Origin: Puniceicoccales bacterium | GTDB taxonomy: Bacteria > Verrucomicrobiota > Verrucomicrobiia > Opitutales > UBA953 | DNA: 64,000 bases | NCBI GenBank assembly: GCA_031269335.1 | Contig: JAISZI010000031.1 | Coordinates: 1-64,000, forward strand | Reading direction: 5' to 3' | Part shown: piece after piece, positions 39,061-43,571 of the stretch | How the letters are laid out: each line of letters begins with the position of its first letter | Numbering within the stretch: the first letter of the stretch is position 1 | Made by a program: the position numbers and the translations under genes | Notes under the pieces: generated by a model | The model's database searches: none | Told to the model about the DNA's origin: nothing | What the model saw: only the letters and a program-made list of their open reading frames with translations

Positions 39061-39191
39061 GAAGAAGTGATGGTCGCAATGAGAACTCGGCGGGTATTTG
39101 GCGCAAGAAAACAATGCGGCGGGCGGGTGTTACATGGATTTTACCGTCGCAGTGATTGCATTTTTCAGCGGCAGCTCAATATAGGGCGCGT

Positions 39192-41888
39192 ATGAAATTC
39201 AAAACTTCTGCTTTGCTATCCCATCGGTGCGCCAAAGTTTCGCGCCGTTTTCTCTCTTCTGCATTGCTTGCGGCGGCTGCGCCGTTGGCGAGCGCGTGGC
39301 TGATTTCTTCAGATGTCGCTGCTGCCAATGATGTTGTGCGGCTGACATTTTCCGCCGAGCTGACTTTTTCCGATGGGCGCACGGTAAACTCCGTGGACAT
39401 CCGCCTTTTCCCTGACGCCGCACCGATCACCGTGGAAAATTTTCTGCGCTACGTCACCGAGGGAAGATACAATGAAACTTTCATTCACCGCAGCGAGAAA
39501 GATTTCGTTGTTCAGGGTGGCGGCTATACCGTCGTCGCGACGGAAGAGGGTAACTCGATTACGCCCATTGATAGATACGATGCGATTACTAACGAGTTCA
39601 ACCAGTCGAACCTTCAGGGCACGCTCGCCATGGCGCGAGCTTCCGGGGTTGAGGACTCCGCAACCAGCGAGTGGTTTGTCAACATCGTGGACAACGACCC
39701 GCTGGACGGTGTGGACGGCGGTTTCACGGTTTTCGGCGAACTCCGAACTGCCGCCGATGTGGAGTTTTTCAACGCGCTCAATAGTCTTTCCACCTTCAGC
39801 GTCGATGGAACGGGCTTCACCAATATTCCGACCCTCGACGATCAGGGGTCTCTCGTTTGGATCATTTCCGCCGAAGTTATTTCCCGCGACGAAACCGTGA
39901 ACGACCGCATTCACACATGGGTCGGCGGGACTTCGGGAAAATGGGACCTCACGACGCGCAATTGGAATATCGTAGAGGGGAACGGCATTGCCCGCATTTT
40001 CACGCAGGGTTCCGAAGTCGTTTTTAATACGCCAGTAGGGACGCGCAACGACATTGCCCTTGTCGGTGGGTTGAATGTCGCTGATCTGTGCATAAGCGGC
40101 GGCGGCACCCTTGTTTTTAATGGTGCGGAAGGATCTGGTGGCATCACGGGGCAAGTCGGCGGCGTGGTTCCGAGCAATGCCGGTGCGCTGCTCAAAAAAG
40201 ACGCCGGCACGGCAGTTTTTCAATCAACGGTGCTCGATTTCCCCGGCGGGACCCGCGTTTCCGGCGGGATTCTTGCACTGGATAACACGCTGTTGAGGTC
40301 TAACGTCCGCGTCGATCCTGGGGCGGTGCTCCTCATTGGACCCAATGGATCGGGCACAGGTATTTACGGGAACATCGTCAACTACGGCACCATCCAGACA
40401 GGAAACAACGTCGTGGGGCGGCTCGTCATCAACGGCACCTTGACGAACGAGGGCGTGCTCCTCCTCAAGCTCTTCGCCGATGGTTCGCGGGACATTATTC
40501 GCAATGACACCGCGCAACCGATCGTCATCGGGGGAACGCTCAAACTCGACATTGCCAGTGAGTTTTTCACGGGAAACTCCGCAATCAGCTTCAACTTCGG
40601 CGAATTTGTCGAGGCTGGTGCCGGTGATGTTTCACTCTCGCCGGACACGACACTGGCGTTCGCAAATCCGCTTTTTATAGGAGAAATTACAGACTGGGCC
40701 AGCGGGCAGATTGAACTGCGCCGCAGTATCGAGGGAATCCCGGTGCGCTCCCACTTGATCCGATTCCGGAGTGCCCTGAACGCTCTCCACGCAAATGACC
40801 CCACAGGCGCCAGCGGCAGCTTCGTCGAATCCATTCTCTCCACTGCCTCTGGCGCAGGCGGCACTGGCGCTACCACGCAGGCAATCGCCGTCGCTTCTCC
40901 GCTCGGCTACTCAAGCCTGACCACCATGTCTAACGCCCTCGCCAACAGCAATGTTGCTGCCGTGCGCGGTCGCATTGCGGCGTTTTACAACGGAACCCTC
41001 ACCGAGAATGCCCCCGCCAAAAAGACCGACGCGACCAGCGCCGGCATCCGGCATCCGTATTCCTCGAATCTCTACATCGCCGCCGGCGGTTCCTTGGCTA
41101 AAAACGGCACCGAAAACACGAACCCCTTCTACGACACGCAAACCTACTCCGTCGGCGTGGGCATCGACGGGCACGTGAAAGATAAAATCCTCGCGGGTGT
41201 CCGCCTCGACGGCGGTAGCGGCAATGCCGATTTCCACTTTGACGCGGGCAAGGCGACCACGAACCAGTTTCAAGCCACGGGCTACGCCTCCATTCCCCTC
41301 ACAAACCAGTTCCGCGCCGACACCGCCGTTTTCGCCGCTTACGCCAACCACGAAGTAAAACACCGCACCCTCGCCGGTGGCGCGGTCAATGAGGCTGACG
41401 CCCGCGGTATTACGGCAGGTGTATCTTCATGGCTAACAGGCAGTTTCACGATAACCGAGACGCTCGACTTTTCCCCGTTTGCCGGCGTCGAATTCACCCA
41501 CGCGAGCACAGGTTCGCTCACGGAAGATGGCGGCGAAGCCAATGGCGCACTTTCCATAGACGCCATTTCGCAGAATTCGCTCCGCGTCCGTGTCGGCGGA
41601 GCTGTCCGTTGGCGTTTCCTGCCGGACGCTCACCTTTCCTTGAACCTTGCGTATGCACGAGAACTGCTCGGGACGGACACCGAAATTAAAGCGCGTTTCA
41701 CCGCCGCAGGATTGCCAAAATTCCGCGTGAACGCCCCCGCCCTCGCCGAAAATGCAATTGAGGCGGGTCCCTCCCTTGATGTGAAACTTTCCGATGCCAC
41801 CGCGATCTCCGCGGGATACTTCTTTGAAAGCAATTTTGCCGACCGGACCGCACATCATTTCAACGCTTCTTTTCAATGGCGTTTTTAA
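39192..41888 (+). CDS. Cyclophilin-type peptidylprolyl isomerase fused to an autotransporter passenger and C-terminal beta-barrel
   Basis: Cyclophilin motifs ITVENFLRYVTEGRYNETFIHRSEKDFVVQGGGYT, NLQGTLAMARASGVEDSATSEWFVNIVDNDPLDGVDGGFTVFGEL; passenger GTLVFNGAEGSGG, LLKKDAGTAVFQS; barrel ARELLGTDTEIKARFTAAGLPKFRVNAPALAEN...FNASFQWRF. Confidence 0.93.
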   Translation: MKFKTSALLSHRCAKVSRRFLSSALLAAAAPLASAWLISSDVAAANDVVRLTFSAELTFSDGRTVNSVDIRLFPDAAPITVENFLRYVTEGRYNETFIHRSEKDFVVQGGGYTVVATEEGNSITPIDRYDAITNEFNQSNLQGTLAMARASGVEDSATSEWFVNIVDNDPLDGVDGGFTVFGELRTAADVEFFNALNSLSTFSVDGTGFTNIPTLDDQGSLVWIISAEVISRDETVNDRIHTWVGGTSGKWDLTTRNWNIVEGNGIARIFTQGSEVVFNTPVGTRNDIALVGGLNVADLCISGGGTLVFNGAEGSGGITGQVGGVVPSNAGALLKKDAGTAVFQSTVLDFPGGTRVSGGILALDNTLLRSNVRVDPGAVLLIGPNGSGTGIYGNIVNYGTIQTGNNVVGRLVINGTLTNEGVLLLKLFADGSRDIIRNDTAQPIVIGGTLKLDIASEFFTGNSAISFNFGEFVEAGAGDVSLSPDTTLAFANPLFIGEITDWASGQIELRRSIEGIPVRSHLIRFRSALNALHANDPTGASGSFVESILSTASGAGGTGATTQAIAVASPLGYSSLTTMSNALANSNVAAVRGRIAAFYNGTLTENAPAKKTDATSAGIRHPYSSNLYIAAGGSLAKNGTENTNPFYDTQTYSVGVGIDGHVKDKILAGVRLDGGSGNADFHFDAGKATTNQFQATGYASIPLTNQFRADTAVFAAYANHEVKHRTLAGGAVNEADARGITAGVSSWLTGSFTITETLDFSPFAGVEFTHASTGSLTEDGGEANGALSIDAISQNSLRVRVGGAVRWRFLPDAHLSLNLAYARELLGTDTEIKARFTAAGLPKFRVNAPALAENAIEAGPSLDVKLSDATAISAGYFFESNFADRTAHHFNASFQWRF

Positions 41889-42052
41889 CCCGAAAACCGC
41901 CTTTGAAAAGGCGCGACTTGCGGAAAGCTGCGGGCATCAGCGAGTTGCGCTCTTCGCTCGACGCGCTTCCAGTGCGCCTTCGGAGAAGCGTAACTCACTG
42001 CTCCTCCGCATCTTCCTCGCAATTCACGCCATTCAAAAGCGGTTTTCGGGTT
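41887..42052. repeat. 166-bp long inverted repeat / giant hairpin immediately at the stop codon of the PPIase-autotransporter
   Basis: Outer arms AACCCGAAAACCGC (41887-41900) and GCGGTTTTCGGGTT (42039-42052) perfectly complementary; homology continues inward (GGCGCGACTTGCG vs GGCGTGAATTGCG; GAGTTGCGCT vs AGCGTAACTC). Confidence 0.85.
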
Positions 42053-42170
42053 CTAACCCGAGCCGAATTCCCCGAAATGCTACGCCGCCAGGAGGATTTT
42101 CCTCGACTCTTCGCGCCGCGAGATGAACCTCGCGTGCTTAGCTTTTTTCAGTCACTTCCAGCTACTTCTC

Positions 42171-43571
42171 ATGCCTAAAGTTACCTTGTCCAGCTTGGAC
42201 CCGCGATTGCAAAAACAAGTCGCGTCCGCCGAGAAATCCCTTCTCACCAATCCCTTATACACCGTCGAAGTCCTCCGTAGCATTGTTCAGAACAATCCCG
42301 AATGTCTCGAGGTCCGGCGCCTCTTGCGCAAGGCGCAAAAGCGCGTCTATGGTCCCGTAAAAAAAGGCTTCGGCAGTTTGTTTAGTTCGTTCCCAGCCGT
42401 ATTGGGCGCCAGCAAGCTCGTCGCTACCGCCCCACTCGAAGCGATCAAAGTCGCAGAAAAATTACTCGATAAAAAACCAACCGACTCTGCCGCTAATAAA
42501 CTGCTCGCTTCCGCCGCCGAAAAACTTGCCTGGTTCGACACCGCTGCATTCGCCTACGAAGAAGCCTCCGCCGCCGAACCGAAAAACCTTTCCCTCCTCG
42601 TCGCGTGGGGCACTGTCCTCATCAAAGCCGAAGATTTTGACGCTGCGTTAAACGTTGCCGACGAAGGGCTTAAACGTTTCCCAGGCAACGGCGATTTACA
42701 AGAAGTCGCCCGCCGGGCATCCGTCGCCAAAACCCTTCAAAAGGGCAAATGGGAGGCGCAAGGCGACTTCAAGGAAAAGACCAAAGACCTCTCGGCTGCC
42801 AGCCAGGTTGACGTCGAAAGCCGCATCGTGCAGGACATCGCCGTCGCCGTCCGCATCGCCGCCGAATTAGAACAAAAAATCGCCGCCGACCCCGAAAACG
42901 TGGACTACTACCGCGAGGCAATCCGCAATTACCAAACCGCCGGAGACTTAGATAAAGCCCTTGATGCCATCCGCCGCGCACGCCAAACAAATATCGGACG
43001 CGCCGACGCAGCACTCGAAAAACAAGAAAACGAAATCTCGCTGGCTATCCTCGATAAAAAAGTGGAGACAATCGCCGAACAGCTCGCCGCCGACCCCGAA
43101 AACGACGCCCTGCGAACGAATCACCAACAAGCCGTGAACGATGCGCTTTCCTTTCGCCTCCAAATCTACAAAAACCTCGTCGAACGCTACCCCAACGACT
43201 ACAGCTACCGTTACAGCCTCGGCGTCCTCCTCCTTCAAACTGGCAGCGTAGATGAAGCCATCCAACAGCTCCAAGTCGCCCAACGCAATCCGCGCAACCG
43301 GCACAACGCCATGCTCCACCTCGCTCGCGCCTTCGTCGCCGGAAACAAATTCGACCTCGCCGTCGAACAATTGCAAACCGCCAAAAGCGAAATCCTTCCG
43401 ATGAACGACACGAAAAAGGAAATTATTTACGAGCTTGGCAGCGCCCTCGAAAAAGTCGGACGCGAAAAAGAAGCTATCGATGAATATAAAGCCCTCTACA
43501 TGAACGATTCCTCCTATCGCGACGTCTCCGCCAAAATCAACGCCTACTACGCCGCACAACAAAACGCCTGA
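42171..43571 (+). CDS. TPR-repeat protein of unknown function
   Basis: Multiple TPR-like helices (PEDVDYYREAIRNYQTAGDLDKALDAIRRA-type; YRYSLGVLLLQTGSVDEAIQQLQVAQ). Confidence 0.82.
   Translation: MPKVTLSSLDPRLQKQVASAEKSLLTNPLYTVEVLRSIVQNNPECLEVRRLLRKAQKRVYGPVKKGFGSLFSSFPAVLGASKLVATAPLEAIKVAEKLLDKKPTDSAANKLLASAAEKLAWFDTAAFAYEEASAAEPKNLSLLVAWGTVLIKAEDFDAALNVADEGLKRFPGNGDLQEVARRASVAKTLQKGKWEAQGDFKEKTKDLSAASQVDVESRIVQDIAVAVRIAAELEQKIAADPENVDYYREAIRNYQTAGDLDKALDAIRRARQTNIGRADAALEKQENEISLAILDKKVETIAEQLAADPENDALRTNHQQAVNDALSFRLQIYKNLVERYPNDYSYRYSLGVLLLQTGSVDEAIQQLQVAQRNPRNRHNAMLHLARAFVAGNKFDLAVEQLQTAKSEILPMNDTKKEIIYELGSALEKVGREKEAIDEYKALYMNDSSYRDVSAKINAYYAAQQNA

Follow-up and report, generated by a model that had tools for sequence, protein, structure and literature searches.

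A Long Hairpin behind an Autotransporter Gene

The DNA analysed here (the window) is a stretch of 64,000 nucleotides from a Puniceicoccales bacterium. It holds an ORF of 910 amino acids (39156-41888, + strand, ending ...FQWRF-TAA) that, unusually, joins a cyclophilin-type PPIase domain to an autotransporter-like C-terminus, and downstream of it a TPR-type gene (42171-43571, + strand) that is kept in all nine genus genomes. The initial annotation, made from the letters alone, had described a 166-bp hairpin starting at the stop codon of the former gene, with stems continuing inside. Both points were confirmed: a nearly complete palindrome runs over 41887-42052, its left end overlaps the TAA stop codon (41886-41888), and pairing continues throughout the 166 bp, beyond the outer 14-bp stem.

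On the + strand, the segment 41880-42060 folded at -93.2 kcal/mol, against -53.4 +/- 4.1 kcal/mol for 200 dinucleotide shuffles (z -9.7, none of the 200 as good). The better folder, however, is the minus strand of the hairpin (41887-42052), by RNA parameters (-102.7 kcal/mol, z -10.8) as well as by DNA parameters (-63.1 versus -52.6 for the + strand), and ten full-length copies (nine from the host genome itself, one from the same genus) agreed in having a minus-type strand that is more stable by about 10-25 kcal/mol. A chance structure is ruled out by these z-scores together with the further genomic copies presented below. The hairpin lacks a T-tract, as the initial annotation had noted, and shows no canonical intrinsic terminator signature; an ordinary intrinsic terminator was rejected on the missing T-tract. 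None of 4227 Rfam families matched the window hairpin.

The left terminal inverted repeat, AACCCGAAAACCGCCTTTGAA (41887-41907, + strand), and the right one, read as its reverse complement, AACCCGAAAACCGCTTTTGAA (42032-42052, minus strand), were delimited from the sequence and from comparison of copies; they span 21 bp with one mismatch. Flanking them are a left target-site repeat, TTTTAA (41883-41888, + strand), which contains the TAA stop of the gene, and a right one, TTCTAA (42051-42056, + strand), identified by comparing the flanks and differing from its partner at one position. If the flanking TTnnAA is a target duplication, the element proper is CCCG...CGGG (41889-42050). At the apex of the hairpin lies the conserved tip GAAGGCGCACTGGAAGCGCGTCGA (41958-41981, minus strand), comprising a GAA/GA internal loop, a G-C pair, a G-T wobble, a short stem, and a loop; it is one base off the consensus, with GCGCG in place of GTGCG.

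That the hairpin is a conserved regulatory element belonging to the TPR gene was ruled out, since no such element occurs upstream of the orthologues of this gene in genus relatives. No autotransporter match was found beside the TPR gene in these relatives, where synteny is lost, and the comparison yielded no empty site for the window copy.

A Mobile Palindrome in the Host Genome and Genus

The search of the host genome (2.5 Mb, 113 contigs) returned nine full-length copies, the others being 93-97% identical to the window copy, together with three internally deleted copies that lack the centre (115, 106, and 89 bp), two miniature 38-bp end-to-end palindromes, and one solo end. Most full copies carry exact AACCCGAAAACCGC on both ends. 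Exact direct repeats of 5-6 bp (TTNAA/TTNNAA) flank 7 of 14 host copies, namely TTAAA at C86 and C22, TTGAA at C91, C17, and C65, TTAGAA at C105, and TTCCAA at C60, while repeats with one mismatch flank two others (C81 and C88), among them the window copy with its TTTTAA/TTCTAA. Because left and right flanks agree in the direct and not in the inverted sense, these repeats are duplications rather than an extension of the inverted repeat.

In the same genus, the covariance model found at least 141 matches in the genome G003, and of ten complete copies checked there, six had exact 5-bp NTNAN repeats (TTCAT, TTCAA, ATAAA, ATTAT, ATCAT, CTCAA). G003 and a second relative, G004, keep the architecture with little arm sequence in common, and the same kind of search gave no convincing copy in six of nine genus members. 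G003 contigs often stop inside hairpins (e.g., L113, L128, L131, L143, L174, L194), and the hairpin repeats appear to break this assembly.

Terminal inverted repeats, a family-level target-site duplication, and many copies without a transposase of their own are the marks of a MITE. That the hairpin in the window is a copy of a mobile palindrome, MITE-like and non-autonomous, is shown by about 14 related copies, common ends, direct repeats, and deleted derivatives; of the three identities that the initial annotation had offered, this was the one supported. Bacterial MITEs such as RUP, Correia/NEMIS, ERIC, and RU-2 (reviewed in PMC2229807) resemble it in that they measure about 100-200 bp, end in inverted repeats, duplicate their targets, form a long stem-loop, lack a transposase gene, and occur in many copies. 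Unlike in these, the inverted repeat here covers nearly the whole element, the duplications are 5-6 bp and NTNAN-type instead of TA, and an apical motif is conserved across several phyla while the arms are replaced.

In the window's genus the element is presumably moved by a DDE-type transposase. Searches with PF01609, PF13701, and PF13340 and matching of ends yielded no autonomous partner in these incomplete assemblies. The DDE_Tnp_1 and IS1380-like loci examined had no ends matching the hairpin, the genus contained no DUF4096 element, and 278 kb of G003 contained no long element with matching ends. As to mobilisation by an IS1380/piggyBac-like or IS5-like enzyme, the sole PF13701 match in the genus is a degraded IS1380-like remnant in the host genome (L087, G000:C74:23047-23427), around which no hairpin-like ends were found.

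One Tip on Many Arms

What remains where the arms of relatives diverge is the minus-strand tip motif, GAAGGCGCAC-loop-GTGCGTCGA, 19 bases in all. We scanned 84,980 species genomes with the tip consensus as seed, so that the invariance of the 19 bases in this set holds by construction, and obtained at least 114 exact matches, against about 11 expected by chance (2 x 257 Gb x 6 loop lengths / 4^19). Among the matches listed, about 98 cap hairpins and about 16 look coding, without a hairpin. Tip-capped hairpins occur in Verrucomicrobiota, Actinomycetota, Campylobacterota, Clostridia, and others; the record titles name Puniceicoccales, Acidimicrobiia and other Actinomycetota, Bifidobacterium, Microbacterium, Helicobacteraceae, Clostridia, Myxococcales, Deltaproteobacteria, Omnitrophica, Elusimicrobium, and Granulosicoccus. 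Several of these hosts are MAGs, in which single contigs may be misbinned; the isolates stand. Each of the 20 genomes tested holds multiple hairpins (2-22), and from group to group the arms are mostly unrelated and the tip is the same.

Nineteen loci from other lineages gave no Rfam match at the gathering score, and matches for six further loci were weak, far below the cut-offs. In the open-access literature searched, we found no description of the tip motif, of stop-codon palindromes, or of MITEs in these lineages. The tip-capped hairpins appear to be an undescribed family of hairpin elements recognised by something in the cell. With Rfam RNA families they share a covarying structured strand across phyla, but differ in having no family match at cut-off.

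Variation within the tip could be tested in one set only, a model-based collection from Bifidobacterium, Microbacterium, Helicobacteraceae, and Clostridia, which is still seeded. Here the tip stem shows compensatory changes (UA in 37 and CG in 15; AU in 46 and GC in 6), 48 of 54 rows retain the G-U wobble, and covariation scored higher than in any of 500 shuffles and in all slid controls. In G003, a second family shows GA/GA and a C-G in place of the G-C pair, and again keeps the wobble.

The arms carry an asymmetry of their own. Read on the tip strand, arm mismatches are more often G-T than A-C in 25 of 31 clusters outside Bifidobacterium (p 9e-4), whereas Bifidobacterium clusters show no wobble bias (12:12). 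As comparison of whole-hairpin folds is confounded by the tip, we put a constant loop in its place, and in 42 of 53 clusters the arms still folded better on the tip strand, by a median of 7.2 kcal/mol (p 2e-5). Since a palindrome kept solely as duplex DNA would show no such asymmetry, this points to strand-specific selection on folding, and one strand seems to have been selected to fold.

These data bear on the idea that we are dealing with an ordinary MITE, the tip of which is a functionless relic spread across phyla in horizontally transferred elements. The hallmarks of a MITE are indeed present, and an inner core, AAGG.CGC ... AACGC, that is additionally common to loci of Actinomycetota, Myxococcales, and Granulosicoccus looks like common descent. 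Nevertheless, a relic would hardly stay nearly fixed on mostly unrelated arms, covary in its stem, and keep its G-U wobble, and the strand-specific wobble bias of the arms also argues against it. Furthermore, similarity searches gave no copies on plasmids or phages, and the pattern matches in viral contigs look like chance matches in coding sequence. We therefore regard a relic tip as quite improbable.

Hairpins at the Ends of Genes

In Bifidobacterium and Helicobacteraceae, many hairpins sit at the 3' ends of housekeeping genes (for example guaA, upp, aspS, purD, purH, purA, araD, or ldh) in a single orientation, with the stop codon within the outer arm. Purine and nucleotide genes recur among the hosts (purA, purD, purH, upp, gmk), and guaA, encoding GMP synthase, has a stop-codon hairpin in Helicobacteraceae (L290) and Bifidobacterium (L263) alike. 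Among 30 Bifidobacterium species, guaA carries a hairpin in nine, a fragment in one, and none in 20; the arms of these hairpins vary by species with pairing preserved. Two species (L323 and L325) have an identical guaA site and identical outer arms around differing inner cores, as if the inner core had been exchanged within fixed arms. Also in Bifidobacterium, two to four hairpins with differing arms may follow a single gene in tandem (L273, L281, L282, L289, L265). There are thus two lifestyles, MITE behaviour in the window's genus versus gene 3'-end hairpins in Bifidobacterium and Helicobacteraceae.

Stop codons also figure in the host genome, where 6 of 15 copies overlap one exactly against about 4% expected from equivalent sites outside genes; the p of about 2e-5 is indicative, resting on simple gene calls and a post hoc observation. 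Orientation relative to genes is mixed there.

Could the hairpin, then, be an RNA structure of gene 3' ends, repeated only incidentally, that terminates or stabilises the transcript of the gene preceding it? This is suggested by the stop codon from which the window hairpin starts and by the overlaps just mentioned, by the stop codons held in outer arms of fixed orientation in Bifidobacterium and Helicobacteraceae, and by the guaA hairpins, the arms of which vary yet pair. On the other hand, neither a T-tract nor a terminator signature is present, copies in the window's genus occur in both orientations, those in G003 lie mostly away from stop codons, and the direct repeats indicate insertion. 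The strand selected for folding is opposite to the mRNA of the upstream gene in the window, in Bifidobacterium, and in Helicobacteraceae. The structured 3'UTR or ncRNA considered in the initial annotation is supported in part: strand-specific selection on folding speaks for it, but the folding strand in the window, the minus strand, runs antisense to the autotransporter gene. All in all, we consider a 3'-end RNA structure unlikely.

Strand-specific folding around an asymmetric internal loop also brings to mind a recombination site used as single-stranded DNA, as known from integron attC or REP/RAYT, with a tyrosine or HUH enzyme acting on the folded tip strand. Integron attC sites are imperfect palindromes after the stop codons of genes, and their structured strand is opposite to the gene (the bottom strand folds). 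The parallel is reinforced by the gene 3'-end position, the fixed orientation, and the tandem arrays in Bifidobacterium. Here, however, the tip and not the outer core sites are conserved, copies are scattered, and the 5-6 bp direct repeats in the window's genus are a signature of DDE enzymes rather than of HUH or tyrosine ones. No GTAG tag or attC-like ends were noted.

REP/REPIN elements of the GTAG and CGTC families are 20-40 bp long and carry GTAG or CGTC as a foot tag, the GTAG families being associated with RAYT (Y1) transposases (PMC3733652). They too are repeated palindromes that often lie 3' of genes and presumably work as folded strands, some of them within longer palindromes. In contrast, the elements studied here conserve the apex, measure about 105-190 bp, and have direct repeats; the window element, at 166 bp and with ends AACCCG/TTnAA, departs from REP/REPIN in both size and foot tag. 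Of 20 genomes with hairpins that were tested outside the genus, 14 lack the Y1 transposase domain PF01797, which is found in genus members without hairpins, and REP/RAYT was rejected, because the presence of Y1 does not follow the hairpins. One weak PF01797 match occurs in the host genome. In G003 and G001, long ORFs with Y1 (RAYT-like) domain matches have multiplied to 18 and 8 copies, respectively, unrelated to hairpin presence. Apart from the transposition-like ends, nothing spoke for the recombination site that the initial annotation had listed, and such a site is in our judgement highly improbable.

A Mobile Palindrome with a Proposed Recognition Tip

Taken overall, the best explanation is probably a MITE-like mobile palindrome, the tip of which serves as a functional recognition module. 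A DDE-type transposase supplied in trans would recognise the CCCGAAAACC ends and insert the element at NTNAN-type sites; an autonomous element would be expected to carry CCCGAAAACC or CCTAAAAACGG at its ends. In the window, the insertion would have hit TTCTAA, where the autotransporter gene ends in Phe-stop, and the stop codon would have stayed intact because the insertion duplicated this target. The tip would be the site for a widely conserved putative protein that binds the folded single strand, either as RNA, to which we give about an even chance, or as single-stranded DNA; RNA is somewhat favoured since wobble pairs are tolerated in the arms on the tip strand.

The likeliest benefit would be that the palindrome, or the transcripts or genes bearing it, is shielded from enzymes that cleave or degrade hairpins, and such protection may allow the palindrome to persist harmlessly at the 3' ends of genes. 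There, template switching during replication could extend an inserted hairpin into the flanking DNA and so give rise to mirrored arms.

More tentatively, the hairpins may make up an undescribed superfamily spanning several phyla, a reading to which we lean somewhat less than not. Its defining mark would be an apex structured on one strand (GAA/GA loop, G-U wobble, and covarying stem) and recognised by a putative, widely conserved protein, whereas the arms would be swapped freely, being the ends of mobile elements in some lineages and mirrored gene ends in others. Taken by itself, the mobile element is a new member of a familiar kind; what is unusual is the tip that several phyla have in common, and with it the element possibly represents a new class.

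That hairpins of several phyla share a tip although their arms are mostly unrelated implies a common recognising factor, and none is named in the open-access literature searched. The tip motif provides a handle for isolating this protein, for annotating the repeats at which genome assemblies break up, and for studying the tolerance of bacteria towards long palindromes, and the guaA hairpin in laboratory strains of Bifidobacterium makes the question of recognition testable.
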